A stretch of 44,909 nucleotides of DNA. It comes from Phycisphaerae bacterium (GTDB lineage Bacteria; Planctomycetota; Phycisphaerae; Sedimentisphaerales; Anaerobacaceae). Where the stretch lies: NCBI GenBank assembly GCA_028714255.1, contig JAQTMR010000017.1, positions 1-44,909 on the forward strand. The letters run 5' to 3'. Positions 284 to 34,075 of the stretch are shown piece by piece. The first letter of the stretch is position 1. Each line of letters starts with the position of its first letter. The translations under genes and the position numbers were made by a program. The notes under the pieces are model-generated. The model did no database searches. It was not told the origin of the DNA and worked only from the letters and a program-made list of their open reading frames with translations.

Positions 284-1519
284 TTATTTCTTCGGAGATG
301 GTTTGCCGATAGTGCGGAATGGGTCCCGCCAGTCGGAGGGCAGTGAAAGAATGGGTTTTTCGCTAAGCTCGGTGAATCTTTTCATTGCTTCTTCGGAAAT
401 CGGCTCTCCCTTATCAAGGTGCGGCGAGACGAGAACCATAAGCTCGGAATTCTTAACATCTCTCTTGTCATAAGAGAAGAGCAGGCCGACCAGCGGTATA
501 TCACCAAGCAAAGGTATCTGGCTCTTGCTGACTCTTGTTTCTTTTTTTCTCAAGCCGCCCATAATAAGGACCTGTCCATCTTCCATAATAAGAGTGGTGC
601 TGGCCTTTCTTTTGTCAACTATAGGAACCGTGGTGGCACCGGCCCCTGTCCCCACCCCTGCTACACCGGTGTTGATACTTTGCTCAGGTTCTAACGTCAT
701 CAGGATTTTCTGCCCGTCAACGATGGTTGCTTTAACTTTGAGAGTGACACCGGCCTCCTTAAACTTTGTCGAGGATATATAATTTCCGGCTTCACCGCCG
801 GTGCTTTCGGTAAGCTCTGTATATGGTATTTCTTCGGTGGTTTGAATGTAGGCTTCCTTTCCACTGGCAACAAGTATGCGCGGGCTTGCGAGTATTTCAA
901 CATTTCGAATTTGCTGCAGAGCGTGAACGGTACCAATGATGTTGGTTTTAGTGAGGGTAAAAACTCCGCCGGTCGTTAACGTGGTCGGTATCAGGGTTTG
1001 TATATAATTCTGGTCGCGTATCGGTTCGAAAAAACGCTCCCAGTCCATACCGATTTCGGTGTCATCACCGAGCTGGACGTCTAAAATAACAACCTCTACC
1101 ATAATCTGTTCAGGAGTTTTGTCGGCTCTTTTAATCTGAGTGACAATTTTCTCAAGAACCTCATTTGAGTCACAGATAACTAAAGAATTGCTTTTATCAT
1201 CGATAGAAATACTGCCATATCCGGAAGACATACCTATAAGTGCGGGCCTGAGATTTCCGGCATTGAGAAATTTAAGGGTCACAGTTTCAACGAATAACTC
1301 CGGCTTTTCGTCCGCCGGCTGGGCAGTTTGGGAAGCTTCCTGCGGTGTGAATTCTTTGTTGTTGAGGAAATCTGCGAAAGGATTATCCCTGCCGACGTCC
1401 AACGTGCCGTCCTGTTCAACTTCAGATTCTGTCGGCTGCTGGGCCTCTGCCGGGCCGCACCATAGGCCAACGGTCAAAATAATACAGAAAACTATTTTTG
1501 CATACGATAGCTTATTCAT
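284..1519 (-). CDS. gspD: secretin (GspD/PilQ family), cluster A
   Basis: This is the outer-membrane channel of the cluster A machine, 411 residues. It begins with a signal peptide (residues 1-26: a hydrophobic stretch, then PAEAQQ). Residues about 55-125 form an N-domain of the secretin type (KFLNAGNLRPAL...DDKSNSLVI). The secretin core follows from about residue 135 to 385, with the typical ASPRILVASG, EIPYTE, LIMGGLRKKE and IPLLGDIPLVGLLF motifs. It is shorter than full GspD or PilQ and lacks the STN domain seen in the cluster B secretin. The ATG overlaps the PilO stop by 4 bases (ATGA), which implies translational coupling. It is the last gene of the operon. Confidence 0.92.
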   Translation of the reverse strand: MNKLSYAKIVFCIILTVGLWCGPAEAQQPTESEVEQDGTLDVGRDNPFADFLNNKEFTPQEASQTAQPADEKPELFVETVTLKFLNAGNLRPALIGMSSGYGSISIDDKSNSLVICDSNEVLEKIVTQIKRADKTPEQIMVEVVILDVQLGDDTEIGMDWERFFEPIRDQNYIQTLIPTTLTTGGVFTLTKTNIIGTVHALQQIRNVEILASPRILVASGKEAYIQTTEEIPYTELTESTGGEAGNYISSTKFKEAGVTLKVKATIVDGQKILMTLEPEQSINTGVAGVGTGAGATTVPIVDKRKASTTLIMEDGQVLIMGGLRKKETRVSKSQIPLLGDIPLVGLLFSYDKRDVKNSELMVLVSPHLDKGEPISEEAMKRFTELSEKPILSLPSDWRDPFRTIGKPSPKK

Positions 1520-2103
1520 AATGCGGCATCCTTACTCTGGATTGTGTAAATCGTAATAGTCATATCGCACTTAAGCTCCGAAGAGCCGAATTTGACAGGT
1601 TCCATTTTAAATGAGTCTATCCAAACTTTTTGGGAATAGTTTTGCAGTTTTTCCACCAGCCTGGTTACGTTGTTATATCGGCCGGTAAAGCTCAACACTG
1701 CACTATCGGCGACTATACTCAAAGCATCCTCTCCTGAAGACGGCGCTTTCGCTACCAGGTTAAGTGAATTAACCGAACAACCTGCTTCTTTGGAAATGGC
1801 CTGCAAATTATCGAAGAATTTTTTGGCCTCATCAGCAGTAAACAAGACGCTGCGGCTCCTGGCAAACTGTTCATTTAATTCTTTGAGCTTTTTCGTTTGT
1901 ATCTCCACCTCACCGATAATGGCCTTGTTTTTCTTTACAGCGTTACTTACAACCGATTCGTATTCCTGCACCGCGAACAAATAAGTAATATGCGGAGCGA
2001 CTATCCAGTCATACATCAGTATTGTTGTTATTACAATCAGCCCCGTAAAAACGGTGTTTCTTGTCGAGCGACTCAAGTTGGCAAGATTATCAATTAATAT
2101 CAT
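1516..2103 (-). CDS. PilO/GspM-like inner-membrane alignment protein, cluster A
   Basis: This 195-residue protein has one N-terminal membrane helix (about residues 16-40), a coiled-coil stretch (about 45-85) and a periplasmic ferredoxin-like region (about 90-190, with FTGRYNNVTRLVEKLQ). That is the plan of PilO and GspM. It should bind the PilN half of the upstream fusion and link the inner-membrane platform to the secretin. Its ATG overlaps the upstream stop by 4 bases and its own stop overlaps the secretin start in the same way. Sequence similarity within this family is always low, so the assignment rests on architecture and neighbours. Confidence 0.8.
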   Translation of the reverse strand: MILIDNLANLSRSTRNTVFTGLIVITTILMYDWIVAPHITYLFAVQEYESVVSNAVKKNKAIIGEVEIQTKKLKELNEQFARSRSVLFTADEAKKFFDNLQAISKEAGCSVNSLNLVAKAPSSGEDALSIVADSAVLSFTGRYNNVTRLVEKLQNYSQKVWIDSFKMEPVKFGSSELKCDMTITIYTIQSKDAAL

Positions 2104-3707
2104 TTTTCACCTTTTTCCGTGACCGGGGTACAACCGATTTCATAACCGACGAAATCCTTTTTATCTCTTTTTGTTTCAGCAATGGAAGCTGACTTTATGT
2201 ATTCGGATTTGTTCAGCATCTCCACAAATAAATAAACATCCTCACTCGATAACGCCAAACCTTTTAGTGATATCCCGGAACCTGCCCTGCTGAACAGGCT
2301 GGTCATACATACTGTTTTGGGTATTCTTTTTCCGATGTCATTCAATATGCCGGCCAAGTCCGTGTCGCAACGAGCGACTGTGACCTTGTTTACCTGGGCA
2401 AGTTTATTGCTTACGGTGTTGATTTGCTTATTCACCAATGCCCGCTCTCTAAGCAGAGCATATGTGTTCTGCAATAAATGGGTCTTCTTGTAGTTGATGC
2501 TTTCGTTTAGTTTTTTAATCTTCCATGTCGGTCCATTTACCGCCAGCGCCATAATCAGCAGTAGCGCCGCTACAATATTGGCTGTTATGAGAGCTCCTTT
2601 TCGGACGGTTCTAAGCCGAACTACTTGCTGGGGGAGCAGGTTCACGCCCAAATTATGCGCATCTGTTTCCAAAAGCTTCATAGCCAGCCCGAGCGCCACC
2701 GGTGAAGGTTTATCGGCTCGCTGACAATCAGCAGACCGACTAACGACAGCGGTATGGCAAATATCCTCGTTGGTCAGCACTTTTAAATTGCTGCTCGCAA
2801 TTTTAGTCTTTAGAACCGCTTCTGTATTCTCAGGCAATTGCTCATCAGCAGCAACCACTGTAATTTCCCACTTCCCGCAACTGTCCGGAACATCTACGTC
2901 ATAAAATTGGATAACCTTATTTATTTGTTCAGCGAGCCAGTGACAAAGCTGCTCTGATTCTGTTTTTTCTCCGTAAGGACTCTCCGGGGCCTTGCTAACA
3001 CTCTTTGTTCTGACAAAATCCATGGCCTGTTTTTTGAACACGCACAGAGTCAGGGTGTCATCCTGCAATACGGCTATAAGCACGTTGCAATCGAATTTTC
3101 CTGCTATATTCCCGGCATAAAGCGCCCTGGTATAGGCAAACAGTGCCGGCTCAATCGACTCGACAACAAGGTCGGCTTGACCGCACATTTTGACAATCTC
3201 GCCTATCTTGCGGTCATCAGTGGCAGTAATAAGAAGCCTGCCCGCAGAACTCACATCCGAACCGGCCCCGCTAACTCCACAATAGTCCAAAGCAATTTTC
3301 CTGCCCGGTAAGACGGCGCAGTCTTTCATCTGGTCATGGACAAACTGTCCTACATTGCTCGGAACCTGTCTCGGTATGTTTATAATTTGCGTAATAACCG
3401 GCCTGGCAAATAATAATACGGCGGCGCGTGTCGCCCGTATTTTGCTGCTGTTCTTTAATTTCCTTATCGCCCTGGCTAAAACGGCGGCGTTTTCGATGTT
3501 GCCGTTCTTTATCGCCCCCTCGGGGACAGAAGAACTGGCGGACTTGAGTATCTCAATTCCGTTTTTGCCTTTTTTAAGAAGCACCAGATTTATTTGCTTC
3601 TCCGAGATACTTACACCCAGGACGGTCTTAGCCTTGAGCATATTCGGTGACGTAAACCGTCTTGACGATACGCCGCGGAGCTTAAACATTTTCAGTGCGG
3701 TTCTCAT
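2100..3707 (-). CDS. PilM-PilN fusion (GspL-type) protein, cluster A
   Basis: A single 535-residue protein joins two domains that are separate genes in cluster B. Residues about 28-345 form an actin-like PilM domain. It is followed by LGVNLLPQQ, the classical cytoplasmic start of PilN, a membrane helix (about 370-392), a coiled coil and a PilN-type periplasmic domain (about 430-530). GspL of type II secretion has the same plan. The phosphate-1 loop reads GVSISEKQ instead of the usual G-D-I-G-type motif, and the second loop is also degenerate, so ATP binding may be lost. The gene lies 3 bases after the PilX-like stop and overlaps PilO by 4. Several in-frame ATG codons near the N-terminus leave the exact start open. 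Confidence 0.85.
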   Translation of the reverse strand: MRTALKMFKLRGVSSRRFTSPNMLKAKTVLGVSISEKQINLVLLKKGKNGIEILKSASSSVPEGAIKNGNIENAAVLARAIRKLKNSSKIRATRAAVLLFARPVITQIINIPRQVPSNVGQFVHDQMKDCAVLPGRKIALDYCGVSGAGSDVSSAGRLLITATDDRKIGEIVKMCGQADLVVESIEPALFAYTRALYAGNIAGKFDCNVLIAVLQDDTLTLCVFKKQAMDFVRTKSVSKAPESPYGEKTESEQLCHWLAEQINKVIQFYDVDVPDSCGKWEITVVAADEQLPENTEAVLKTKIASSNLKVLTNEDICHTAVVSRSADCQRADKPSPVALGLAMKLLETDAHNLGVNLLPQQVVRLRTVRKGALITANIVAALLLIMALAVNGPTWKIKKLNESINYKKTHLLQNTYALLRERALVNKQINTVSNKLAQVNKVTVARCDTDLAGILNDIGKRIPKTVCMTSLFSRAGSGISLKGLALSSEDVYLFVEMLNKSEYIKSASIAETKRDKKDFVGYEIGCTPVTEKGEK

Positions 3708-3710
3708 GAA

Positions 3711-4178
3711 TTATTCGTTTATCCTTAAATTATCAATTCTGATTATGTAGGGACTGCCGGTTCCTACCGTTATATCTGCTTCCACTCTGGCGACAAAGCC
3801 CTGCGATGTGGTGGCTGTGGAAGTAATTGTAAGATTCGGCAAAGTGCCTGCTACATTGACATCGTACACATCACCATTAAAGCTTTTATCAGTAAAGCCT
3901 GTTGTCCAGCTTGAGTCGTCCCTGATTTCAGCGAAAGCATCGTTAAGGCCTGCCTCTGCGACAGCCTGCGCGCGAGCCGCGCAGACTTGATTCCGCATAA
4001 GCTGTAATTCTTCCGTACTCATCTCCAAGATACCGACCGTTATCGTGGCCATAAGTGCAATCGCAAAAACGGTTATTAAAAGTACCGACCCGCCTTCGCT
4101 TCGCTTCGGCGAGGCAGGCCCGGCTTCGACTCTTGTCTTCGCCGCGGCAGGCCCGTTATTTTTAGTCTTTGTTTTCAT
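3711..4178 (-). CDS. PilX/GspK-like minor pilin, cluster A
   Basis: This 155-residue protein has a charged leader of about 30 residues, a hydrophobic helix starting GSVLLITVFAIALMATI (about 30-50), then EELQLMRNQ and an AEAGLNDA motif. These are typical of the PilX N-terminal domain, where a helix of the type LAEAGL follows the pilin transmembrane segment. A Glu at +5 of the mature pilin is not evident, as in GspK-like proteins. The rest (about 80-155) is a small beta-rich domain of unknown role. It lies 12 bases after the LamG pseudopilin. The leader is unusual: part of it (PASPKRSEGG) is encoded by a palindromic element. Confidence 0.8.
   Translation of the reverse strand: MKTKTKNNGPAAAKTRVEAGPASPKRSEGGSVLLITVFAIALMATITVGILEMSTEELQLMRNQVCAARAQAVAEAGLNDAFAEIRDDSSWTTGFTDKSFNGDVYDVNVAGTLPNLTITSTATTSQGFVARVEADITVGTGSPYIIRIDNLRINE
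4088..4120. repeat. palindromic element inside the PilX-like leader
   Basis: The GC-rich stretch holds CGCC (4091-4094), TTCGCTTCGCTT and GGCG, followed by AGGCAGG. It resembles the REP-like palindromes scattered through many bacterial genomes. It is translated in frame as the leader segment PASPKRSEGG of the PilX-like protein. That it is a mobile palindrome inserted into a permissive leader is inferred from its look, not from a second copy in the window. Confidence 0.4.
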
Positions 4179-4190
4179 AATAGTTTCTCT

Positions 4191-6740
4191 TTAAGGTTGC
4201 AGCTGCCCTCCGCAGCAATAGTCATCGCCGGCGGCTGGGGCTATGGCTATTGTAAGCATCGCCGCTTCGTTCTCCCTGTCCAGTGCGAAGTTCGATGTCC
4301 CGCTGTTGCCTGCCATTGCCTGCCTGATATAGCCTGCTCCGCCGGAGCAGGTGTTGGTATAACAGTTAGTAGGAGCTATACAAGGTGACGCGGTCCAATA
4401 CGCCTCGCTGACGGTGAGCCAAAAGTTGCTGGCGGGACCGTTTCCAGTATGCTCCATATATCCAGAGCCACCTGAGATTGAACCATCGCCCGTGTTACTG
4501 CGGTCCATTGTAATATCATTATGGTCAGCTAACCCGGGGACATCAATATTGATAGCATCGCCGTCAAAGGCTCCCAGCCTAACAGTTATAACGTTACCCA
4601 CACCCGTCGGCCCCACGTATGAGGGTCCGCAGGGCGGGTCTATTCTGGGTGTGTTGCTGTATATAGGGCTTGCCCACGCACCGTACCTAAGATTGGTGCC
4701 GACCAATCGTACTATCCAGCCATATGCCTGTTCGCCGCCTGCCCAGCTAAAGGAGTAATCGTTCGGTTCTGAAGCGCCCGCTGTTCTATGCCATGCCCTC
4801 AACGTTACCGCCGTAGGAGGAGACCCGCCGGGCAAAGTTGTGATTGTGCTCCAACCGGTTGCCGGCAAAGAAGGCGCAAGACTATCATAGGTGGCTCCGT
4901 CTGTGGCGACGGCCGCAAGCAAAAAATCCCCCGCAGCAGTATCGTCCGGCTTCGGAATGGTAATGGAGATGCCGTCGGTATCCAACTTGGCCTCGCTAAA
5001 TCCGCCATACTCGTTAGGCATGTTAGAATCGGCGCTTTTATCCATTGTAATTGCAGTATGGTCGAGCAGGCCGGGATTACCTGGCTCAGGGGTAGTGACA
5101 ACATCGTCGTCATCAAACGCCCCGAGACGAAGAATCAGACAATTATTGACTGTTGTTGTAACCGCCGGACTGGTTGGAGTGATGCTGGACTCTCCGCCGA
5201 CCGAGTGGGCATTTATTGGCTTAACAGGGTTGTGGCCGGTGAATCGCATCATCCAGCCATACGCCTGACGGCTTCCCGACCAGGTGAACGGATGGTAGCT
5301 CGGCTCTGAAGAGCCCACAATTTTATACCATACACCTAATGTAACAGCTCCGTCGTAATCGTCGAGGCTTATCAATGTCCAGCCCGCGTTGACAGGTACA
5401 AGAGACAACGTGGTATCTCCGTCCGTAGCAACTGCGGTGATTAGTAAATCGCCGACGTTCGAGGGAGGAGTTGTAATGTAAACCGACGTAAGGTAGTAAC
5501 CGGTTTTGTACTCTCTGATATCCCTGTATCGGAGGGTATTGGCCAGCTCGGCGACCTCGTCTGCGCTGAGCGCACGATTATAGACACGGACATCGTCAAT
5601 CATACCGTAAAATGGAGCAAACGTCGCGTCAGTAACTGCCGTCCCCAATCCTAACGGCCCTGCATTATCATCGATAGTTCCACTCGGACTGGCATTACTG
5701 GCAACTTCTTGCCCGTCAACATACAATCTTAAAGTTTCTTCGTCGTAAGTAGCGAATACATGATACCATTGCTTGGTATTAGTGCTCGAAGGACTTGACG
5801 CTCTATATCTTAGCCCTCCTACAACTACTTCTGCCTTAAATCCATTCCAATCAAATAATTCACATATTCCCGTACCGCCGCTATTTTCCTTAAATATAAT
5901 TCTCTCCGCCCATTTTTTGGGTTCGTCTAATCTTACCCAGCCACCCCAACTTCCGGCATCCAGGTTGAGGCCGTTGTTATTGCCGCAATCAACACCATCG
6001 TTAGTTCCATCGAAAGCTAATCCCCTGTTTATTACGCCTCCGGTCCATTCATCGCCGGCCATATTAATCAGAGTGCCGTCGTGGCCTGACCCGCTGCTGT
6101 CAGCCGCTGTTAAGCCGGAAGCCTCATCCAGTTTCCAGCACCCTGCGATGCCGCATCCAGCGTTTGCGTTTGTGCGAAGATAGACCCAGGTGGTGAAGGT
6201 TTTGTCCCGACCGGACGACTCTGAGTCAATAATAGTGGCGTCAACCTTGACAATGCGGATGAGATTAACATCCGTAATCGGCGTATTCAAATCGCACGCA
6301 TCGTAACAGGTAAACTGCAGCAAGCCTGCCGGCCCTGCGAGGCATGATAGACTGCCCGGAGCACCAAACTCCACGTAGTTATTGGCAGAACTAATATCAT
6401 ACCTGCTCACATCTCCGTCATAATTGGCGAAGTTGATGTAACCCCCGGTGTCGTAGGACTGGCTGACGGCTGTTATCTGCACCGCCTTCGAAAGATTGCG
6501 GTTAATATGGTCTATCAGAATTCTGCCGTTTTGAATGAGCTCGGAATTTACGCGCTTGGAGTCCCAGCCGTTCTGGATGACCCTGAATTGCGGCAGCACC
6601 GCTGCGAAGATAATGGTCATTATGGCCAAAGCTATTATCATCTCCACAATAGTTAGTCCGCCACAGCAAAGCCGTTCGTCAGAACGAAGGCCATGCAGGA
6701 ACGCTGGACATCGCCGAAATTTTTTGTTTCGATAACTCAT
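4191..6740 (-). CDS. large LamG-bearing minor pseudopilin, cluster A
   Basis: The protein has 849 residues from the ATG at 6740, which is preceded by a good ribosome site (GGTGA, 4 bases). A GTG 45 bases upstream has none. After a 30-residue leader it carries the prepilin site GG|LTIVEMII with Glu at +5, then a PilW/GspJ-like helix. Residues about 190-397 form a LamG/concanavalin-like domain (WKLDEASG...DDVRVYNRALSADEV). Residues about 429-570 and 603-753 are two copies of one module, each with a VATDG motif, QAYGW and TMD[KR]S. Pseudopilins are usually 150-250 residues, so this is a pilin stalk carrying a long, probably carbohydrate-binding passenger. A tip or surface role is inferred. The C-terminus is Cys-rich (YCCGG). 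Confidence 0.85.
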   Translation of the reverse strand: MSYRNKKFRRCPAFLHGLRSDERLCCGGLTIVEMIIALAIMTIIFAAVLPQFRVIQNGWDSKRVNSELIQNGRILIDHINRNLSKAVQITAVSQSYDTGGYINFANYDGDVSRYDISSANNYVEFGAPGSLSCLAGPAGLLQFTCYDACDLNTPITDVNLIRIVKVDATIIDSESSGRDKTFTTWVYLRTNANAGCGIAGCWKLDEASGLTAADSSGSGHDGTLINMAGDEWTGGVINRGLAFDGTNDGVDCGNNNGLNLDAGSWGGWVRLDEPKKWAERIIFKENSGGTGICELFDWNGFKAEVVVGGLRYRASSPSSTNTKQWYHVFATYDEETLRLYVDGQEVASNASPSGTIDDNAGPLGLGTAVTDATFAPFYGMIDDVRVYNRALSADEVAELANTLRYRDIREYKTGYYLTSVYITTPPSNVGDLLITAVATDGDTTLSLVPVNAGWTLISLDDYDGAVTLGVWYKIVGSSEPSYHPFTWSGSRQAYGWMMRFTGHNPVKPINAHSVGGESSITPTSPAVTTTVNNCLILRLGAFDDDDVVTTPEPGNPGLLDHTAITMDKSADSNMPNEYGGFSEAKLDTDGISITIPKPDDTAAGDFLLAAVATDGATYDSLAPSLPATGWSTITTLPGGSPPTAVTLRAWHRTAGASEPNDYSFSWAGGEQAYGWIVRLVGTNLRYGAWASPIYSNTPRIDPPCGPSYVGPTGVGNVITVRLGAFDGDAINIDVPGLADHNDITMDRSNTGDGSISGGSGYMEHTGNGPASNFWLTVSEAYWTASPCIAPTNCYTNTCSGGAGYIRQAMAGNSGTSNFALDRENEAAMLTIAIAPAAGDDYCCGGQLQP

Positions 6741-7008
6741 CTTGTCACCAAATATTTTTTGCACCACTGTCGGTATTTTCGGCACAAGACAAAACGTCCG
6801 TTATGCAAGTTTCAAATTATCCGCCGTTAAAATGAGAACAGAAAAAACGGCAATAAATGAGGGCTTTGGGGGCTGAAAGAGTGTTTTTATAGGGCGTTAG
6901 CGGCTGACTAATAGAAGGAATACTCGGGCCGGCAAGAATGTCCTATAAGTCCCGTAAGGCCCGCAGGATGGCTGGCGCCAGATGCCTCACGGCATTTGGG
7001 CAGGCGAG
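6741..7008. other. structured spacer between two pseudopilin genes
   Basis: No gene was found in this 268-base gap, which is long for this tightly packed operon. It contains the palindrome CTGGCGCCAG, a hairpin ATGCC-TCAC-GGCAT, an inverted pair CGGGCC/GGCCCG and the 11-mer GTCCTATAAGT (6940-6950), which recurs at 36562. It may hold a processing site or an attenuator between the GspI-like and LamG genes. Confidence 0.4.
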
Positions 7009-7470
7009 TTAATCGTTCCATCTTCTGGCAATAAGGGTTGCCAGTGTTATGTCGATTTCATCGCCTGTTAGTGTGGCGTCACCGTTCGAATCAAAGCCTA
7101 CCGAGACCGTTATTGTTTTGAGCTGGTCGTCGGAATCATCTGTTACGTTACACCGATATGAGCCGCCAAGAGAAATGTTATTTCCCGCAAATGAACCGCC
7201 GTTGGTGTAATTGTAAACCGACCTCGCTTTTATTTCATCGAGCTTGGCCTGGGCAAGAACAAGACTAACGCTTTTATGCTCGATATTTATATTGTTAGCG
7301 TGGGCAACGGTCAAACATTGCAGCATTGGAACTATCGCTATAGCCAGTAACGCCGAAGCAATAACAACTTCGACAATAGATAATCCCGCAAAACGTTTTG
7401 CGTTTTGCGATTTGCGATTCCTTCGATTCCGCTCGGTATAAGCCGCGATTTTTATTTGATTCTTTGGCAT
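7009..7470 (-). CDS. PilV/GspI-like minor pseudopilin, cluster A
   Basis: The 153-residue protein carries a long basic leader of 29 residues ending in AG, then LSIVEVVIASALLAIAIVPML, the type III prepilin site and hydrophobic helix with Glu at +5. The S-I-V-E start and the PMLQ that follows resemble the GspI/PilV group. The globular part has a Gly-rich segment and a short DSNGDATLTGDE stretch (about 125-136) resembling a calcium-binding loop; calcium-bound loops are known in GspG-type pseudopilins. It starts inside the end of the upstream GspH-like gene (19-base overlap), so the two are probably coupled. Its ribosome site is weak. Confidence 0.85.
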   Translation of the reverse strand: MPKNQIKIAAYTERNRRNRKSQNAKRFAGLSIVEVVIASALLAIAIVPMLQCLTVAHANNINIEHKSVSLVLAQAKLDEIKARSVYNYTNGGSFAGNNISLGGSYRCNVTDDSDDQLKTITVSVGFDSNGDATLTGDEIDITLATLIARRWND

Positions 7471-7916
7471 CTCATCATACCCGTAGCACTGTAGAATATA
7501 ATCCTGTAAGTTCTGTCTCCTGTGTAAATGAGAATCATGATACCGCCGGCGGTCTTATTTCCCAACGGCCCAAACCTAAAGTAGTTAAGACCTAAAGGAA
7601 TAACATTGATATTTGAGCCTATCGTTTGTGTATCCACCACAACACCGTTAGAATCATCGATTATTTGATAGCCCGAGTAGGGTGCTGTACCGGTCATCTG
7701 CAACTTAAATCCGGTTTGATTTGTCGCCGCATTGGCAATGGCCAGAGTACGTGTTCGGCGCAGGTCGGTAATAAGTTTTCTCGTAACTATGTCGGCTTGT
7801 TTATTATATAAGGTGGAAAACTGAAGTTTTGGTACCGCTACAACGGCTAACGCGGCTAAAATTATTAAAATTACAATCAGTTCGATCAGTGTGTGAGCAT
7901 TGCTTTTCTTTGTCAT
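7452..7916 (-). CDS. GspH-like pseudopilin, cluster A
   Basis: The chosen ATG at 7916 gives 154 residues and a short basic leader, MTKKSNA, before HTLIELIVILIILAALAVV, with Glu at +5 of the mature pilin. A frame upstream is open for another 37 codons but would bury this leader. The body (LQFSTLYNKQADIVTRKLITDLRRTRTLA) matches the GspH/FimT pattern, in which the helix is followed by a stretch rich in Arg before a beta domain (about 65-154). An Ala at -1 and His at +1 are uncommon for prepilin peptidase substrates. The gene sits 76 bases after the GspG-like gene and overlaps the next pseudopilin gene by 19 bases. Confidence 0.87.
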   Translation of the reverse strand: MTKKSNAHTLIELIVILIILAALAVVAVPKLQFSTLYNKQADIVTRKLITDLRRTRTLAIANAATNQTGFKLQMTGTAPYSGYQIIDDSNGVVVDTQTIGSNINVIPLGLNYFRFGPLGNKTAGGIMILIYTGDRTYRIIFYSATGMMRCQRIK

Positions 7917-7992
7917 AATGCAAATTAACCCTCTGCCTCCCGGCAAAAGTAGGGAGGGAGCTTTTCGTACCCCATGTGATTTGGTCCTTTTA

Positions 7993-8331
7993 TCAGGGGT
8001 TGTGGCCGGGGGTGCTGCATTCGACACGGTTATCAGTGTTCAACGAATAAGGGGTACTCGTTCCAGTGGTCGGACATACAGGAGCACCGTCAGGGAAGTA
8101 GTTAGCGTCAGCAACGAGAGTAGCCAAGGCCGGATATGATTCATTTTCGGCATACCACAATTCAAGTTGTGTGTTCATCGTAGCGACATTAGCCTGGCAG
8201 GCCCTCAACTTAGCGGTGGTCGAACTTTGAGACATCCTCGGAATTGCAATTGCAGCTAACGCTCCTAAAATTAAAACCACAATGAGCAACTCAATTAATG
8301 TAAGGCCTTTTCTGCGATTTAACAGCTTCAT
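7993..8331 (-). CDS. gspG: GspG-like major pseudopilin, cluster A
   Basis: This 112-residue protein has the textbook prepilin start MKLLNRRKG|LTLIELLIVVLILGALAA, with cleavage after Gly9 and Glu at +5. ATG 8331 is preceded by GAGG at 6 bases; the upstream TTG is not needed. The mature domain is short, with AKLRACQANVATMNTQLELWYAENESYP, the helix of GspG and small type IV pilins, and a C-terminal loop holding two Cys (CPTTG... and VECSTPG) that could form a disulphide. As first pilin gene after the platform protein, it probably encodes the main pseudopilus subunit of cluster A. Confidence 0.9.
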   Translation of the reverse strand: MKLLNRRKGLTLIELLIVVLILGALAAIAIPRMSQSSTTAKLRACQANVATMNTQLELWYAENESYPALATLVADANYFPDGAPVCPTTGTSTPYSLNTDNRVECSTPGHNP

Positions 8332-8535
8332 ATTATGCCTCTTTCCCAAAGAATTTTTATTTACTTTATTAACTCGGTTGCATAATCGTCATAAAACATC
8401 CTCTACTTTATAAAAAGCCCATCCGTCACGTTGAACATTGTTCTGATAATTAATGTAATCTACTTACACAAACAAATTTTATGGGACGCAACTGCCTGTT
8501 ATTTACAGTCGCCTAATCTAAATAAATACTTTTGG

Positions 8536-9732
8536 CTATTGCAGATGCCCCATGTAATCGAACATAGGCAAATACGCACCTATGAGAATCAATCCAACAA
8601 TAAGCCCCATAATAATTGTCAGGGCCGGCTCCAGTTTTATAAGCAAAGCATTTATTGTCCTGTCAATATCCTTATCAAGGATGTCGGTGCCTTTGTTCAA
8701 CATCTCCGGCAATTGCCCCACCTGTTCACCGGAAGCTGCCAACTGTACAATTATCGGGGGGAAAATTGCATAGCTTTTAAGTGATTTCGCAATAGCATTA
8801 CCCGCCTTGACCTCTTGCTGCAATTCTTCGGCTATTTCGGTCAACTTGTGATTGTGAGCAACCATACTTGCTACTTCCAGCGCCTTAATCAGCGGTACTC
8901 CAACCGAAGCCAGCATTGCGAATGTCCGGGTAAAATGCGAGACCACAAGCATACGATTTAGTTTGGCAAAAACAGGCATATTCAGTTTGAAAGAGTCCCA
9001 CCACACCTGCGCTTGTGGTTTTTTCAGCAGCCATCGCCCTGTTATCACCCCCGCCACTATCACAATAATAACCGCCCACCACTGCTGTGTTATCATCGAA
9101 CTTACGCCTACAAGAATTCGAGTCGGAAGCGGCAACAATACATGCGCCTGCTTATACAATTTCATAAAAATTGGTATGACAAAAATCAGCAGAAAACCGA
9201 TAACCACAAAACACATAATCGCCACTATAACCGGATAAGCAAAAGCGGAGGTGACCTTTCGTTTAATCTCCGCCTGTTTCTCCAGATACGCAGCGCTTAT
9301 ATCGAGTGTCTTTCCCAGCTTTCCGCTGGCCTCACCGGCCTCAATCATTCCGAGAAAGAAACCCGAGAATAAATTTTTGTATTTTTCGCAGGCGTTTTTC
9401 AGGCTCGAGCCCGTTTGTATGCTTTGCTTAATATCAGCAATTACGTCCTTGAAGGCCTGATTTTCGGTCTGCTCCTCCAGCGTTTCGAGGCAGCTTACTA
9501 TTGACAAACCTGCCGAATACATACCCGCGAATTTATATGCGAAAGTCGCTACTTCCGAACGCTTTATTCTCCTGCGCTTCGCCGCTGAGCCTTTTTTCCG
9601 CCGGGCCCTTACGAGAACACAACCTATCTTGGCAAGTTCCTTTCTCAGCGCCGCAATATTATTAACCTCGGTGTATAAGCCGGTGAACTTTTTGCCGGTT
9701 CCGTCTTTCGCCACATATTGATAAGCTGTCAT
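8536..9732 (-). CDS. gspF: GspF/PilC inner-membrane platform protein, cluster A
   Basis: The 398-residue protein has the two tandem T2SF domains of this family (about 65-190 and 270-390). Each starts with a helical cytoplasmic part (FAYKFAGMYSAGLSIVSCLETLE; FTRTFAMLASVGVPLIKALEVAS). There are three membrane segments: about 170-195, 215-238 and 370-392. An N-terminal domain of about 50 residues (YQYVAKDGTG) is also family-typical. GspF/PilC connects the motor ATPase to pilin assembly. The ATG at 9732 shares one base with the GspE stop (TGATG), and GAGG lies 8 bases upstream. Confidence 0.95.
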   Translation of the reverse strand: MTAYQYVAKDGTGKKFTGLYTEVNNIAALRKELAKIGCVLVRARRKKGSAAKRRRIKRSEVATFAYKFAGMYSAGLSIVSCLETLEEQTENQAFKDVIADIKQSIQTGSSLKNACEKYKNLFSGFFLGMIEAGEASGKLGKTLDISAAYLEKQAEIKRKVTSAFAYPVIVAIMCFVVIGFLLIFVIPIFMKLYKQAHVLLPLPTRILVGVSSMITQQWWAVIIVIVAGVITGRWLLKKPQAQVWWDSFKLNMPVFAKLNRMLVVSHFTRTFAMLASVGVPLIKALEVASMVAHNHKLTEIAEELQQEVKAGNAIAKSLKSYAIFPPIIVQLAASGEQVGQLPEMLNKGTDILDKDIDRTINALLIKLEPALTIIMGLIVGLILIGAYLPMFDYMGHLQ

Positions 9733-11435
9733 CACTCTGTCCTCATATTGATGACTCGAATTATCTCATCCACTGTTGTCACTCCATCAAGAACCTCTTT
9801 GACAGCACCTTCGTGAAGGGTACTCATACCTTCTTTAACAGCCTGCTGTCTAATCGCGTCGTTGTCGCATCCATCTGTAATCATTTTTCTTATTGCCGGT
9901 GATACGGGTAATATTTCAAAAACACCCTTTCGGCCGTGATAGCCGGTATGGTAGCAACTGTCACATCCTGCCCCCCGATAAAGCTCTATCTTTTCATTCG
10001 GGGCAGATTTGCCGAACAGACACTTCAGGTCATCTTCGGAAGGCTTATAAACTTTCCTGCATTTGCTGCAGCAGGTCCTTACGAGCCTTTGGGCGATTGT
10101 TCCCAAAAGCGCCGAAGCGACAAGAAACGGGGCTACTCCGAGATTGATTAAACGTGATATCGCTCCCGCTGCATCATTGGTATGCAATGTGCTCAACACG
10201 AGATGTCCCGTCAGGGCTGCGCTGATGGCTATTTCCGCTGTTTCATAATCTCGTATTTCACCTATCAATATGATGTCCGGGTCCTGCCGAACTATGCTTC
10301 GCAACGCTGACGCAAATGTTATCCCGGCAATCGGTTTGACCTGCATCTGTGTAATGCCGTCGAGGTGATATTCGACAGGGTCCTCGACAGTAACGATATT
10401 TCTTTCTGTGGTATTCAGCAGTTTCAGTACCGAATACAGGGTGGTCGTTTTGCCGCTGCCGGTCGGACCGGTCAGTAGCAGCATACCATAGGGATTGCCG
10501 GCCAATTCTCGAAATTTCCGATTGTCCTCGGGCGAAGGTACAACGGCATCGAGCGACCATTTAATCGCGTCCCTGTCGAGAATCCTGATAACTATTTTCT
10601 CACCTCTCATACCCGGCAGCGACGAAACCCTCATATCGTACTCCTTGCCGTCATGCCGCACAATCATATGGCCGTCCTGCGGGATTCTTCGCTCGGAAAT
10701 ATCCATATCCGCTGCAACCTTAATGTGCGAGACCACCTCGAGATGTGCCGATGAAGGCACTTTTATCGCATCGTGCAGGATGCCGTCCACACGGTATCGA
10801 ACCCTCATATCGGGCTGTTCCGGCTCGATGTGTATGTCACTGGCGTTGGCGTCAATCGCGCTGTTTATTATCGAAGAAACCAGCTTCGTAATAGGTGCAT
10901 CGGCAACCTGGGACGATTTATATTCGAGCTCCGTCTCGTTTAATTTATCTTTATCGCTGTCGGTGGTTAACCGCATCGAAGCTATAGCCTGGCGCGTTAC
11001 GTTTTTCACGTTGAAGTGATATATAACAGCCTGCCTGATTGCCTCCTGGGTAGCTGCCAGAGGAACTACCTTTAAACCCGTCCTCATCTCTATTTCATCC
11101 CTGACTGCGAGATTCAAAGGCGAACTCATCGCAACCAGCAGCTTGTTGTTCTCTTTTTTAACGGGGATTATATTGTACTGGTTTGCCATCTCGTACGTTA
11201 TCATATGAGCGGCTATAGGATTTATCATATCCGGCGAAAGGTTCACAAATTCTATCTTATGACTAGCGGCAACTATCTTTATGAACTGCTCTTCATCTAC
11301 AAAGTTGTTTTTTTTGAGTACGCCTATCAGGCTCAGGCCGCTTTGCTCCTGTTCCTTGAGAACCTCCTGCAGGGTCTTTTCATCAAGAATATTCTGCTCC
11401 AGAATATACGAAATTATTTGTTCCTGGTTTTGCAT
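9732..11435 (-). CDS. gspE: GspE/PilB assembly ATPase, cluster A
   Basis: This is the cytoplasmic hexameric motor that drives pseudopilus assembly, 567 residues. An N-terminal MshEN/GspE-N domain (about 1-140) precedes the RecA-like core. The Walker A box GPTGSGKTTT begins at Gly323, with Lys329. Downstream follow the Asp box, the Walker B box DPDIILIGEIRD and the His box. A four-Cys zinc motif (CCSKC...GCDSC) sits about residues 455-510. Ribosome site: AGGGAG, 4-5 bases before ATG. It is the first gene of the cluster A operon, and a possible promoter lies about 90 bases upstream. It resembles the cluster B ATPase throughout; neither is a PilT-type retraction motor. Confidence 0.96.
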   Translation of the reverse strand: MQNQEQIISYILEQNILDEKTLQEVLKEQEQSGLSLIGVLKKNNFVDEEQFIKIVAASHKIEFVNLSPDMINPIAAHMITYEMANQYNIIPVKKENNKLLVAMSSPLNLAVRDEIEMRTGLKVVPLAATQEAIRQAVIYHFNVKNVTRQAIASMRLTTDSDKDKLNETELEYKSSQVADAPITKLVSSIINSAIDANASDIHIEPEQPDMRVRYRVDGILHDAIKVPSSAHLEVVSHIKVAADMDISERRIPQDGHMIVRHDGKEYDMRVSSLPGMRGEKIVIRILDRDAIKWSLDAVVPSPEDNRKFRELAGNPYGMLLLTGPTGSGKTTTLYSVLKLLNTTERNIVTVEDPVEYHLDGITQMQVKPIAGITFASALRSIVRQDPDIILIGEIRDYETAEIAISAALTGHLVLSTLHTNDAAGAISRLINLGVAPFLVASALLGTIAQRLVRTCCSKCRKVYKPSEDDLKCLFGKSAPNEKIELYRGAGCDSCYHTGYHGRKGVFEILPVSPAIRKMITDGCDNDAIRQQAVKEGMSTLHEGAVKEVLDGVTTVDEIIRVINMRTE

Positions 11436-19937: not shown

Positions 19938-21203
19938 TTATCTCACCCGTTGCGTCCACTTCACGCCGGCACGCTCAAGTTCGACACTATCCTTATGTAT
20001 CTTGACGACTTTCACGCCGTTTATTGTGCCGCCCTCTTTCACTATCTCGCCGTCTATTACTACCAGCGGCTTATCCTCGGAATACAATATCCCTGTTAGC
20101 GATACTTCAGTCGAAGAAACAGCAGCCTCGCTTGGCGGAGAAACAGCAACACCGCCTGACGGAGGAACAACTGCTCCGCCCGACGGGGAAACCGCCGCCG
20201 AATTCGGGGAAATCCCCTGCTCACTTTTTGTTTCCGAACTTGAACTTGGCCATAACCGGCAGACAACCCCCCAAGCCATCGCAACGCTCAATATAATCAG
20301 TATGATAAGCCAAAATATGAAAGATTTGTCGCCTTTGTCTTTGCCTTGCTCTCCAGACTGAACCATAGTAGTAGCTCGGCGGAGCTGGCCGGGTTGAACA
20401 CCAGGGTTAAAATGAACGCCCTGCCCAAGCTGCACCGTCTGCCTGGGCCGAACTGCGGACTCTAACTGGTTACTGCCGGTACCGAGCTTGGCCAATTCAG
20501 GCGTTTGTTCCAGCAGGAGCCGATACACAAGAGCCATTGCCGTCATAATTATTGGAAGCGCCGCAAGTATGCCGACAAAAAAACAGAGTAAGCCGAGGAT
20601 ATATATCAGAAAGCACAGAATACCGAAGAAAAACAGCGACCATTTGACGCCGGCCGTTGCAAGACTGCTCGCCTTCAGCGCACTGACAGGACCAAGGCCC
20701 TTATCGACTACAAAATAAAAACACAGGCTGAACCTGATTAGCAGATGTATCACCAAAACTAAAACCGCAAAAACAACCGACAGAGATAAAAACGCGTTCC
20801 GCATCATGCCAAATAGAAATACGAACGGTAAAATACACGCGATAGAAATACCGATATAAATCAAAGCGCAAAGAAGTCCCGTCCCGATATACCGCCAAAA
20901 ACAGTCCATCCCGTTAAATAAAGTGCTGAACCTCGGCTTTTGCCCGTCGCAAAAACTCAGAGTTATTTTGATGAACCCTATCCCCAATATGGTTTCGACC
21001 ACAAAAGACACGCCAAGCATCAAAAAAAACAAAAAAGGCGGAACCGCCCCGGGGCAATATCTCATTATTGACTTTGGAATTTGTCCCAGCGCCGAAACCA
21101 GTAATATAATACCGCCCACACCCACGAAGAACCAGAAGTTAGCTGTCATCACACGCCAGCCAAAACCCAATACGCTGCTGTAGCTGAAAGATTTGCTCGG
21201 CAT
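19938..21203 (-). CDS. polytopic membrane protein with GspC/PilP-like C-terminal domain
   Basis: The 421-residue protein begins with about six hydrophobic segments (residues 20-235), the whole resembling the glycerophosphodiester-phosphodiesterase-type or DUF975-like membrane domains of unknown role. A hydrophilic stretch, a further membrane helix (about 289-306) and a low-complexity Pro/Ser/Gly/Val linker (about 320-360) follow. The last 55 residues (ILYSEDKPLVVIDGEIVKEGG...VELERAGVKW) closely match the end of the cluster B protein at 32468-33217, a GspC/PilP-like periplasmic domain. This suggests a part that docks on a secretin or its partner, by inference only. The ribosome site is weak. 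Confidence 0.7.
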   Translation of the reverse strand: MPSKSFSYSSVLGFGWRVMTANFWFFVGVGGIILLVSALGQIPKSIMRYCPGAVPPFLFFLMLGVSFVVETILGIGFIKITLSFCDGQKPRFSTLFNGMDCFWRYIGTGLLCALIYIGISIACILPFVFLFGMMRNAFLSLSVVFAVLVLVIHLLIRFSLCFYFVVDKGLGPVSALKASSLATAGVKWSLFFFGILCFLIYILGLLCFFVGILAALPIIMTAMALVYRLLLEQTPELAKLGTGSNQLESAVRPRQTVQLGQGVHFNPGVQPGQLRRATTMVQSGEQGKDKGDKSFIFWLIILIILSVAMAWGVVCRLWPSSSSETKSEQGISPNSAAVSPSGGAVVPPSGGVAVSPPSEAAVSSTEVSLTGILYSEDKPLVVIDGEIVKEGGTINGVKVVKIHKDSVELERAGVKWTQRVR

Positions 21204-22353: not shown

Positions 22354-23943
22354 TTAGCCGCCCCGGATAAAACGCATCTGGCCGATACACGGAACCCACT
22401 TCCACGAAACAAACCCGTACAGCACCTTGGCCAAACCGTTCTTTCGGCTGCTTTTCAACAAAAAGCTTTTCAGGCTATCGGGCCACGGGGCCTCGAACCC
22501 CCCGGGCCAATAGACAAACAGCGCTTTGCCGACAAGATAATCGCCCGGCACAATACCGTCCCGGTAGAACTGCCCGTTATTACCAATGCCCGCCTTGCTC
22601 CACCATCTGCCATCCTCGCTGTTGGGACTATTGTCCCCAAGTACGAAAAACTCATCTCTGCCGAGCGTAAGAGCATTGCCCTCTATCGCTCTTCCCACTT
22701 CATCACTGCCGGCCCGCTTCTTCGCCGTGTAGTGAATATCCCTAAAAATCGCTACGTGCGAGACCGCCAGTGTGCCGGAGCCTGAAATCTCAACCACCGG
22801 CTCGATGTCACTTTCCCTCTCGCCGGCATCATCGGGCAAACGGCCCAAATCGTAAGTTAATTTGTCACCGCCGAATTGAAATATCAATTGATGGTCAACA
22901 TTGGCAAATTCGACCTCCACAGGTTCACTCACGGCTGATGTGTTTATCATTTTGCTGACCAATTTTATCTCGTTGCCGTCTGAAACCTTTGCGATAACCA
23001 TCTCGCCGCCAAAATCAACCCATGCTTTGTATATAGTTTCATACTTGCTCAAAGATATACCGACGCCGTCCGCCAGTTCGCCCGATTGCACGTAGAAACG
23101 CACCTTCAGGTCGCTGCAATAAGGCATCTCCATATAACTTCCTATGCTGTCATAAGCGTATGTGGCCTTGAAATCATTACCGAGCGAAGTGTCATAAACT
23201 AACGTGCTGGTTTCATCGGCAGCACAGGCCAGCCGGAACTTAGTGGGGTCGGATTCATCGAGCTGCCATTTTGACCCCGCTGCGTTTCTCCAAGGCTGCT
23301 GCCACGGATGACCGTTAAACAAACCCTCCCGCGGACGGACGGGTTGGTAGTCGTTATCATATACAGGCATCCATAGCTCATCCTGAACCCTGGCAGGCTT
23401 TCGGCTGATTTGCCCGTCGATGTAAATGTCCCCGTCGATTATCTCAACTGTCTCTCCGGACCTGCCAATCAATCGCTTAATATAATTCTCCGAAGGATTA
23501 AGCGGATTCTTGAATACAATTACGTCCCATTGCTTGGGTTCGTAAAATTGATAGACGCACTTTAGAACAAGTATCCGGTCGCCATTGAATATCGGAATTG
23601 CACTGTTACCTGCATCATAATAGCCGCAGCTCGGGCAGCGGGAAGCAGGCGGCTTGACGTAGCCGGAAACAACAGAATCCCTGCTCGGCCTGTATCGCTC
23701 CATATCCGAACCGCAGTCATACCCATACCCGCATTGCCGGCAGCGAAGCCGAAAATGGTCCCCCTTAAGCGTGTCCGCCATACTGCCCGTCGGAATCCGG
23801 TACGCCTCCACTACGAATGCCCGAACAAGAAACGCCAGTATAAAAGCCGTTATCATCCACTCGAACGTATTGGCTATTTCCGCCGCCCTGCTGGTTTCAT
23901 TTCTCTTTTGGGGACTGCTCTTTTTGCTTTTGTCTGCTGCCAT
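22354..23943 (-). CDS. lepB: signal peptidase I with zinc-ribbon-like insert
   Basis: This membrane serine protease removes signal peptides from Sec and Tat substrates. The N-terminal anchor helix (about 28-48) is followed by box B, RIPTGSMADTL, with the catalytic Ser54. Box D holds the general-base Lys156 (YIKRLIGRSGE) and box E is GDNSPNSEDGR (about residue 450). At 529 residues it is about twice the usual size. One insert (about 65-110) has paired cysteines, CRQC and CPSC, and looks like a zinc ribbon. A second, of about 250 residues between boxes D and E, includes a beta-rich domain. Such long forms are known in Planctomycetota. A strong promoter lies at 23977-24005; ribosome site AGGA. 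Confidence 0.93.
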   Translation of the reverse strand: MAADKSKKSSPQKRNETSRAAEIANTFEWMITAFILAFLVRAFVVEAYRIPTGSMADTLKGDHFRLRCRQCGYGYDCGSDMERYRPSRDSVVSGYVKPPASRCPSCGYYDAGNSAIPIFNGDRILVLKCVYQFYEPKQWDVIVFKNPLNPSENYIKRLIGRSGETVEIIDGDIYIDGQISRKPARVQDELWMPVYDNDYQPVRPREGLFNGHPWQQPWRNAAGSKWQLDESDPTKFRLACAADETSTLVYDTSLGNDFKATYAYDSIGSYMEMPYCSDLKVRFYVQSGELADGVGISLSKYETIYKAWVDFGGEMVIAKVSDGNEIKLVSKMINTSAVSEPVEVEFANVDHQLIFQFGGDKLTYDLGRLPDDAGERESDIEPVVEISGSGTLAVSHVAIFRDIHYTAKKRAGSDEVGRAIEGNALTLGRDEFFVLGDNSPNSEDGRWWSKAGIGNNGQFYRDGIVPGDYLVGKALFVYWPGGFEAPWPDSLKSFLLKSSRKNGLAKVLYGFVSWKWVPCIGQMRFIRGG

Positions 23944-30851: not shown

Positions 30852-32435
30852 TTATTTCTTAGCCTTCTCGGCTTTTTCGTCTCCGGTATAACCAATCCGC
30901 GGGCCGTCGAATTCGGTCTCTTCAAAGCCCTTGAGCTCGTTTGCCGTAAGGGGCTGGGTCGGCCTGGTAACAACTTTAGGCGTTATGAAAATAAACAACT
31001 CGTTGGTTTTTGTCTCCTCTTGTGACTTCGTAAAGAAACTTCCCAGAATTGGTATATCGCCGAGCACCGGCACCTTGTAAATATCCTGTGAAACGTCCCT
31101 TTTGCGAAGCCCGCCAAGCACGACAGTGTGACCGTCCTTTACCAGTGCTTTCGTATCGAATTTACGGGTGTCAATAGTCGGCGGGGTAGCAGTACCTATA
31201 CGAACTCCAAATTCCGGCATAATGTGCAATCTTACCATCCCGTCTCTTGTGACATGCGGGGTAACCTTAAGCTCGACGCCGACCTCTCTCCATTTGGTTG
31301 ACGTCAGCGAGCCGCCGCTGGATGTGTCACTCGTTTCCGTATAGGGAATTTCTCTTACGATTTTGAAATCAGCGGTTTCGTTATCGAGCACCAGAATTCG
31401 CGGGTTCGCAAGCAGCTTGGCTCCAGCCTCGGAACGCAGCATATTCAGCGCCAGGTTTATATTAATCGTATCGAGAAAACCAACGCTTATACTGCCGGCG
31501 CCCTCAGGTGTCCCCGAGCTCGTATCCACTGCAAAGTCGCCGCCTACAAAGGGGTTACTTTTTCTATATAGATAGCTATCAGCGCCTGTTACGCCCCCGG
31601 CAGTATTTGTCTGCCAGGCTGTGTTCTCCGTATCCGTTTTTATTCTACCAGTAGTAGTAGCCCCGGCTGCTGTAGTTTTGGTGGTAACGTCGGTAAGAAC
31701 GGATATCGGGTTGTTTCGGCCCGCGCCCCACTCTGCATCGATTTGGAAGCCGTCGGTGGAGGTAACATCGTAAATCCTCACCTCGACCAATACCTGCGGT
31801 GTCACGCGGTCGATTTTTTCGATAAAGGAATCTATGGCTTTGATTGTGCTCTCGGTATCGGTAACGATTATATTGCTGGTGCCGTAATTGCAGGATAGCG
31901 AACCGCGCTTCGAGATGAATTTCTTCAAAGCCTCTTCGACTTCTTTCACCTCCGCATAAGTAATCTCATAAATTCTGCTCTCGAGGACTTCTTCCTTTTG
32001 GGCAATTTCAGCAATCGGCGCTATTCTTATCATATTCTTGTCTATTACCCGGCCATAGCCGTGCACGGCAAGAATATTATCAATCGCTTCTATCAGCGGC
32101 ACATTTGTGAGCTTGGCGGTAACATTGCCGGTAACATTCGGGCTTTGGATAATATCCACGTCCGCCTGCTCAGCTATCATCTTTATCACGTCTTCGATAG
32201 GCGTATTCGTGAAATCGACGCTTATTTTTTTGAGCATCCGCTGGTCGAGAGTCGCCGAGCCGCCCTGCTTTGAATCCCCGCTTACGGCAACGTTTGCGTC
32301 CGTAACAGTAACACTAACGCCAGGTAAGACTTCCGGTTGTACCGGAGAATCGTTACTGTCCTGAGCAAGGGTTATAGTGCAAGCCGCGATAACGAATGCA
32401 AAAACTGTTAATTTCAATTTTTTATGACTTCTCAT
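30852..32435 (-). CDS. secretin (PilQ/GspD family), cluster B
   Basis: The ATG at 32435 (ribosome site GAGG, 7-8 bases) gives 527 residues and a signal peptide (about 1-25) that the longer upstream ATG would bury. An STN domain (about 65-140, ISVDFTNTPIEDVIKMIAEQ), as in PilQ, is followed by an N1-like domain (about 150-215) and the secretin core (about 215-505, with LLANPRILVLD, EIPYTE, VVLGGLRKRD and VPVLGDIPILGSFF). Residues 245-310 hold a Thr/Ala-rich, probably flexible insert. It forms the outer-membrane pore of the cluster B machine. It is larger than its cluster A paralogue, which has no STN domain. Confidence 0.93.
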   Translation of the reverse strand: MRSHKKLKLTVFAFVIAACTITLAQDSNDSPVQPEVLPGVSVTVTDANVAVSGDSKQGGSATLDQRMLKKISVDFTNTPIEDVIKMIAEQADVDIIQSPNVTGNVTAKLTNVPLIEAIDNILAVHGYGRVIDKNMIRIAPIAEIAQKEEVLESRIYEITYAEVKEVEEALKKFISKRGSLSCNYGTSNIIVTDTESTIKAIDSFIEKIDRVTPQVLVEVRIYDVTSTDGFQIDAEWGAGRNNPISVLTDVTTKTTAAGATTTGRIKTDTENTAWQTNTAGGVTGADSYLYRKSNPFVGGDFAVDTSSGTPEGAGSISVGFLDTININLALNMLRSEAGAKLLANPRILVLDNETADFKIVREIPYTETSDTSSGGSLTSTKWREVGVELKVTPHVTRDGMVRLHIMPEFGVRIGTATPPTIDTRKFDTKALVKDGHTVVLGGLRKRDVSQDIYKVPVLGDIPILGSFFTKSQEETKTNELFIFITPKVVTRPTQPLTANELKGFEETEFDGPRIGYTGDEKAEKAKK

Positions 32436-32467
32436 AAACAAGCCTCTTTCCAAATTAGCTGTTGCTG

Positions 32468-33217
32468 TTAACGTTGAACCTTTTGTTCCCATTTTCTGCC
32501 GTTCGCTTCGAATTCAACGCTGTCTTCATTTATTTTTACGATAACTACATCCAACACTTTATCGCCCTGATGCACCATCCGGTCGCCAATAACCGCACAT
32601 GGATTCTCTTTACTATAGACAATTCCTTTGATGATTAGCCCTGCGGTACCGGTCTCGGCCTGACTCGTCGTCATGGGCGTGGCCGGGCCAAACTGCATAG
32701 GGTCGCGAAGCGTCGTCGGGTAGGGCTGCGGAACCTGCCAATCAACTTTAGCTTTGGCCTCGGAGGCAGGAGCATTCAACTCAGCAGATATCCCGGCCCC
32801 GGTTATCTTGCGCGAAGGCGTACTAAAAGCTCGAATAAACATAAAAATCAGGACAATAAAAAGAATCGGAGCCAAGACTACCATCGTCTTTTGCCGACCG
32901 GCGTTGACCCCGGGCTTTTGAGCAAACAATTTGCTTTTAATCTGCCCCAGCGTCCGCTGCCAGGCTGCTTGTTCAACAGTTTTTATAACGGCACCAGCTT
33001 CAGACTGTTTAGCCTCGGCCGATTTTGCGGGTGACTGTTCGAGTTTCGGCCTGGTGGGAGTCATATGACTCGGAGCAGGCGGTTTCGGAGTATTATTATT
33101 TTGGCTGCCCTGTCCCGGCTGAACAGAAGGCTTCTGCTGGACGTTGTTTTTGGGAAGTGACACGCCGTTAAAAATCTCCGAGACGTCTTTATGCAGCCCT
33201 GCTTTATAATCTGACAT
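32468..33217 (-). CDS. GspC/PilP-like periplasmic linker protein, cluster B
   Basis: This 249-residue protein has a Pro/Gln-rich cytoplasmic region (about 15-85), one membrane helix (about 112-128, VVLAPILFIVLIFMF) and a C-terminal periplasmic domain (about 195-249, IVYSKENPCAVIGDRMV...VEFEANGRKWEQ). The short end domain fits the homology region of GspC or PilP, which contacts the secretin. The unusual N-terminal stretch resembles a GspB- or PilZ-free linker; its partner is unknown. Ribosome site GAGGAG lies 7 bases before the ATG, which overlaps the ParA-like stop by 14 bases. The same domain ends the membrane protein at 19938-21203. Confidence 0.75.
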   Translation of the reverse strand: MSDYKAGLHKDVSEIFNGVSLPKNNVQQKPSVQPGQGSQNNNTPKPPAPSHMTPTRPKLEQSPAKSAEAKQSEAGAVIKTVEQAAWQRTLGQIKSKLFAQKPGVNAGRQKTMVVLAPILFIVLIFMFIRAFSTPSRKITGAGISAELNAPASEAKAKVDWQVPQPYPTTLRDPMQFGPATPMTTSQAETGTAGLIIKGIVYSKENPCAVIGDRMVHQGDKVLDVVIVKINEDSVEFEANGRKWEQKVQR

Positions 33218-34031: not shown

Positions 34032-34075
34032 TTTTATCTTGTCCCGCAAACTCAGGCCGAGAACTCATCGGCCTG

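Follow-up and report, generated by a model that had tools for sequence, protein, structure and literature searches.

The J gene and its operon

The window (the whole 44,909-nucleotide stretch of DNA that was analysed) is one contig of a 2.41-Mb assembly that is 98.9% complete. Its genes at 284-11435 on the minus strand form one T2SS-like operon in the order E-F-G-H-I-J-K-MN-O-D, in which the gene referred to here as J sits between the GspI and GspK genes:

9732..11435, minus strand: GspE/PilB assembly ATPase with MshEN domain (E)
8536..9735, minus strand: GspF/PilC inner-membrane platform protein (F)
7993..8349, minus strand: GspG-like (major) prepilin (G)
7452..8027, minus strand: GspH-like prepilin (H)
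7009..7470, minus strand: GspI-like minor pseudopilin (I)
4191..6740, minus strand: GspJ-like minor pseudopilin, 849 aa, carrying LamG and two M modules, one nested in the other (J)
3711..4178, minus strand: short GspK-like prepilin without Glu+5, 155 aa (K; NF037980 T2SS_GspK, 2.8e-5)
2100..3707, minus strand: PilM-PilN fusion (MN; Pfam)
1516..2103, minus strand: PilO/T2SSM_b-like protein (O; Pfam)
284..1519, minus strand: secretin, PilQ/GspD (D; Pfam)

No operon protein matched GspC or GspL, and the PilM-PilN fusion and the PilO/T2SSM_b-like protein are present. Position +5 of K is hydrophobic in 57 of 57 relatives, and the median length of K is 138 aa. In T2SS, the extreme tip of the filament is where a K lacking Glu+5 is expected, and the K of this operon thus fits as the top-of-filament subunit. 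PilT is absent from the operon. The four PilT proteins over the cut-off are all encoded on other contigs of the genome and a prepilin peptidase gene lies on contig C7, so that retraction is possible; surface extension and retraction are uncertain because the operon has no PilT of its own.

The operon order is kept in nearly all related loci examined, in dozens of Sedimentisphaerales genomes. The named related loci (L numbers below) are all from Planctomycetota, chiefly Phycisphaerae and Sedimentisphaerales. A profile of the J pilin domain was present in 75 of 161 Sedimentisphaerales genomes, and a phylum-wide sample (n = 199) gave two genomes of the order, one of them that of the window, and weak matches in three further genomes. 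The source genomes are mostly MAGs, several being single-contig chromosome assemblies.

Architecture of the J protein

The minus-strand ORF at 4191-6740 has a stop-free translation of 849 aa, or 864 aa from an alternative upstream start at 6785, and consists of the following parts:

6156..6665, minus strand: prepilin site, helix alpha1 and conserved pilin domain, residues 26-195 (A1 alignment, AF2 model)
5535..6161, minus strand: LamG/ConA-like domain, residues 194-402 (Pfam and fold match to AbnA domain 4)
5025..5525, minus strand: module M1, core alone, profile positions 2-164
4365..5012, minus strand: module M2, complete, profile positions 2-206, between the M1 core and the M1 hairpin
4227..4352, minus strand: terminal hairpin completing M1, profile positions 165-205
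4194..4205, minus strand: QLQP tail at the C-terminus, of the Phi-x-P kind seen in J proteins

The first-pass annotation had described this 849-aa ORF as a prepilin leader and helix followed by a LamG domain and a duplicated module, and translation, Pfam and module alignment confirmed this layout. The prepilin site is CGG/LTIVE, with Glu+5 and then a long alpha1. N_methyl was found with E = 0.0014 and 18.6 bits against the 21.2-bit Pfam cut-off in a single-protein scan, and passed the cut-off with 23.9 bits in a genome search. Laminin_G_3 was found at residues 244-397 with E = 2.9e-28 and 99.4 bits (cut-off 27.6). J thus has, in one chain, the N-terminal prepilin motif (N_methyl/IPR012902) and the non-pilin domain that characterize modular type IV pilins. 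Large pilins had been presumed rare, which is untrue within Sedimentisphaerales, where frames of 380-1190 aa are the norm at the J locus.

The identification as a pseudopilin, made from the sequence alone, is backed by operon position, by Glu+5 and by the GspJ fold match of a relative's pilin domain. In the A1 alignment of 32 J relatives, whose pilin domains share 42-64% identity, neither T+2 nor E+5 varies. In the AF2 model of the window J, the pilin domain mostly has pLDDT 80-97, with a helix at residues 31-83. The match list of this model was filled by LamG, and the fold match was taken from the relative L084 (421 aa, model pLDDT 72), whose pilin domain matched the solved structures of XcpW (Z 12.1 and 11.3), EpsJ (11.3) and ETEC GspJ (10.9), followed by S. 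sanguinis PilB (Z 7.7). As J gave no match to the curated GspJ profiles in Pfam (E <= 1) or NCBIfam (E <= 0.1), it is termed GspJ-like. It resembles GspJ/XcpW/EpsJ in pilin-domain fold (Z 11-12, in the relative), in I-J-K gene order and in Glu+5, whereas classical GspJ has about 155-200 residues in the solved chains and, unlike the window J, no cargo behind the pilin domain. Cargo-less outgroup J proteins have 176-188 aa and end in ...CLR(T).

Module M and its nesting

M1 and M2 are homologues: they share 41% identity, and 40 alignment columns do not vary over six copies. They therefore do not align to unrelated folds. Their length, first put at about 150 residues, is that of the core; the complete module has about 205 residues and ends in a closing beta-hairpin (SGGAGY..., TIAIAP). 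In the window J, the hairpin of M1 is found only at the extreme C-terminus, beyond M2, and the profile order is accordingly core 2-164, complete 2-206, hairpin 165-205. This order recurs in L042, L044 and L088, with close variants in L050 (two proteins), L133 and L061, and a different domain stands between M core and hairpin in L043, L045, L046, L047 and L048. In the 1185-aa J of L098, a LamG-module cassette splits a propeller, with three blades before it and four after making up seven, and a sister J of 1165 aa has the same three-blades-before arrangement. Such bracketing is the pattern expected when one domain is inserted into another, a reading that is drawn from sequence and profile order, since the terminal hairpin and the tail are modelled by AF2 at low confidence.

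When 161 Sedimentisphaerales genomes were searched with an M profile, 22 gave matches. Those examined lie inside J proteins or in ORFs adjoining J, some of them in genomes G297 and G333 beside K at contig ends, and among these matches the module appears to be confined to J-locus proteins within the genomes searched. M matched no Pfam, NCBIfam or PDB-sequence family, and a PDB sequence search with its profile gave nothing at E < 1; its only fold matches were generic beta-sandwiches (Z <= 6.3). A weak match to PHROG 3329 (phrog_3329, 1.2e-6) was seen, and the divergent M copy of L061 matched a minor tail protein of an Erythrobacter phage (1e-9). The window copies had no match among plasmids, phages and viral contigs.

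A recent local duplication of M was considered and found unsupported, as in L042, L044 and L088 the inner copy clusters with a J that has one module. The inner copy of the window is divergent and unplaced.

LamG and the exchange of cargo

The model of the window LamG matches domain 4 of the arabinanase AbnA (Z 18.6, rmsd 2.9, 195 aligned residues), the structure of which was solved with an arabino-oligosaccharide. Lower fold matches are other ConA-like lectin folds and are functionally uninformative. At the same insertion point, orthologous J proteins carry CBM9_1 with DUF1349 (5e-44 for CBM9_1; L079), CBM96 (5e-9; L105), CBM_3 with Big_7 (2e-13 for CBM_3; L082) or DUF7305 (L100), and repeat propellers, mostly seven-bladed, in some cases. 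The likeness of LamG to an arabinan-binding domain and the presence of CBM3, CBM9 and CBM96 in orthologous J lend indirect support to the polysaccharide-binding role that had been predicted for the protein. LamG domains are also able to bind proteins, and the propeller, lamin tail domain (LTD) and M cargos are putative binding domains for which a sugar ligand is unproven.

Among the operon proteins only J is conspicuously variable, and its pilin domain is conserved. J has a length CV of 0.41. That of F is 0.03, and those of H, I, K, MN and O lie at 0.11-0.13; the values of 0.20-0.26 for E, G and D are raised in part by ORFs cut at locus ends. With 16 cargo classes over the 65 rows of the J pilin tree, at least 34 changes of class are needed; the independent E+F+MN tree, built from the same operons (49 operons, 17 classes), requires at least 29. 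Both counts are approximate, as the classes were assigned by simple motif and profile criteria and the trees were made by a quick method. On the E+F+MN tree, propeller and LamG+M account for nine changes each, at least seven of each being forced by supported branches alone.

Tandem J genes with unlike cargo occur within one operon, as LamG+M and propeller in L133 and as three genes with LamG, M and a third cargo type in L081:5692-9466. The LamG and M genes of L081 are sisters by pilin domain (SH-aLRT 96), which indicates that cargo was replaced after duplication. L061, from the same genus as the window, has a DUF1349-like domain resembling that of L079 in place of LamG, and it retains an M1 core and a terminal hairpin with 63% identity each to their counterparts in the window. 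Loss of J paralogues, instead of exchange, may underlie part of the cargo pattern.

Other forms of cargo were also encountered, unknown domains among them. A paralogous operon in three genomes encodes a J with LTD (L140:5081-6532, L141:5030-6472, L142:2757-4268), followed in L140 by a MAM-like stretch. The cargo of L074:8146-9306 has no Pfam match and by eye has the look of a ThuA/glutamine-amidotransferase-type alpha/beta protein, not of a beta-sandwich lectin. At L054:6086-7639 and L111:8240-9766, J stops at the module start and the rest of the module is found in a separate downstream ORF with a signal-peptide-like start and the J-type C-terminal tail, a case of cargo fission.

A shared C-terminal tail

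Proline is the last residue in 46 of the 61 distinct complete J proteins longer than 300 aa, 44 of which end in [ILVMF]-x-P (Phi-x-P), and the commonest form of this tail is (E/Q)-(I/V)-L-P. A C-terminal proline is found in 0-12% of the other operon proteins, and the DUF7305 and LTD types of J are without the Phi-x-P tail.

Three explanations for the tail were set aside. It is not a general prepilin feature, as proline is the last residue in only 2 of the 28 further prepilins that the host encodes. An artefact at the DNA level, such as the ribosome-binding site of K or the stop context, is rejected by codon and stop usage: all four CCN codons serve for the tail proline and each of the three stop codons occurs after it, including at loci in which K is not the neighbouring gene. 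That the tail is the last piece of the pilin fold is unsupported, as cargo-less J proteins end without it. The position of the tail is of low confidence in the models, and a function as a mounting or docking signal would be our guess.

J as a candidate tip head

From the gene architecture and synteny, the GspJ fold match of a relative, the homology and nesting order of the modules, the cargo exchange and the tail, we infer, with somewhat better than even confidence, that J is the tip-displayed, exchangeable glycan-binding head of a T2SS/T4P-like machine. Its pilin domain, once processed by the prepilin peptidase from contig C7, would join a K-I-J tip complex, with the C-terminal cargo displayed beside or above K, and extension of the filament could then drive the binding head out through the secretin. 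In the window, this head would consist of a LamG resembling an arabinan-binding domain and two beta-rich modules, of which the first encloses the second. In the order as a whole, cargo at this place has been replaced or re-nested many times on a fixed pilin domain and machine. Its likeliest job would be to bind polysaccharide at the tip, leading to particle adhesion or to glycan capture for the cell's many CAZymes.

A purely periplasmic T2SS-like piston would leave the cargo of J unexposed. It is possible, though on the unlikely side, that J acts as a T2SS-type adaptor whose cargo stays in the periplasmic vestibule, where it docks exoproteins and selects the substrates of the pseudopilus. The GspH-I-J-K-like minor pilins, the GspJ pilin fold and an operon without PilT agree with such an adaptor, for which the five further LamG proteins of the host genome (about 900-1700 aa, none of them a second J) are possible exported clients. 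However, the operon has no visible GspC or GspL and has PilM, PilN and PilO, which are shared with T4P, and three of the exchanged cargos, CBM3, CBM9 and CBM96, belong to families whose ligand is polysaccharide, not protein.

A bolder form of the tip-head reading, which we regard as speculative and unlikely, makes J the swappable glycan-binding tip of a polysaccharide harpoon that would catch large polysaccharides, whose retraction would carry the glycan to or into the periplasm and whose Phi-x-P tail would be a mounting signal for any cargo. If true, this would supply the missing recognition part of macromolecule uptake in planctomycetes.

Exchange as frequent as that at the J locus might also reflect pressure from phages or predators, the exposed tip being a receptor that is swapped to evade recognition, with ligand binding secondary. 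Type IV filaments are known phage receptors, and the distant M-like domains in phage proteins noted above (phrog_3329 and the Erythrobacter phage minor tail protein) would suit this scenario. A point change would suffice for escape, however, and replacement by whole CBM families argues for a change of ligand; we regard the scenario as improbable. It is highly improbable that J functions unattached, as a released or secreted adhesin or coat protein whose pilin domain is an export signal alone: module-bearing cargo does form a separate downstream ORF in some genomes, with a signal-peptide-like start in L054 and L111, but export would not need a full GspJ fold, and the pilin domain is kept at 42-64% identity with an invariant Glu+5. 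Next to no credence can be given to an assembly or gene-calling artefact joining unrelated ORFs by frame or chimeric contigs. MAGs do predominate among the sources, and splits or interruptions affect a few J genes (G057, G082), but independent genomes and the single-contig chromosome assemblies CP070830, CP070715 and CP070675 show these architectures again, in frame and closed by the same tail.

Comparison with known systems

A glycan-binding, tip-displayed J would have parallels in several pilus systems. Modular type IV pilins comprise more than 1,200 proteins with 264 architectures, PF13385 (LamG) included, and in them, as in J, an additional functional module follows the prepilin part on its C-terminal side (Raynaud et al. 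2021; PMC8179133). They were described singly from InterPro, whereas J is one orthologous slot of a conserved operon with order-wide swapping, shows insertion of one domain in another, has a C-terminal tail in common, and in several cases exceeds their 860-residue multi-domain extreme (PMC8179133).

The PilC protein of Streptococcus sanguinis is, like J, a minor pilin bearing a ConA-like module, a glycan-binding lectin, and was modelled at the tip with PilA and PilB (PMC9934059). Unlike J, it belongs to a monoderm T4P without secretin, has another pilin and carries one Ig-like and one lectin module; exchange at its locus is not reported in the accessible part of that paper (PMC9934059). The Kil/Tad pili of Myxococcus, described as having adaptable tips, likewise have minor-pilin tip complexes with extra modular end domains, in four paralogous tip sets in one genome, but these are Tad-type pili with other pilins that serve in prey killing (PMC12075869). 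The MUL type IV-like pili of Akkermansia are a pilus-like system of the PVC superphylum tied to glycan attachment and uptake, but they are encoded by Amuc_1099-1102-type loci, and the sections of the source at hand describe no LamG- or CBM-bearing GspJ (PMC13174399).

Modular pilins are thus already known and common, lectin-bearing and LamG-bearing ones being among those known, and what looks new is the order-wide swapping and nesting at the J slot. A partial literature search found no description of a GspJ slot whose cargo is nested and is exchanged across an entire order, and a search for LamG together with pilin returned no relevant work.

Sedimentisphaerales have the highest diversity of GH/PL families of the phylum at the order level (PMC11131199). 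Planctomycetes take up very large molecules, and dextran binds to pili-like fibres of Planctopirus and Gemmata, where the uptake system is uncharacterised (PMC5394234). Having acquired carbohydrate-binding domains again and again in evolution, the J slot is a concrete candidate for a component that binds macromolecules in planctomycetes. Its loci form natural matched pairs of pilin and cargo that are informative on the cargo tolerated by a pilus tip, and the nested domains offer a clear series for the study of domain-in-domain insertion.

The window has a second type IV filament cluster at 30852-43310 on the minus strand. It encodes an ATPase with MshEN, a platform protein F, three N_methyl prepilins, PilM, a T2SSM-like protein, a 523-aa PilX_N protein and a secretin with GspD N0, and its large minor pilin is PilX-like, not J-like. 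Between the two clusters, also on the minus strand, a 421-aa protein (19938-21203) matches CdsD_C (E = 1.2e-6), a domain that takes its name from a ring protein of type III secretion, and a 529-aa protein (22354-23943), above the usual size, has two stretches that match signal peptidase S26.
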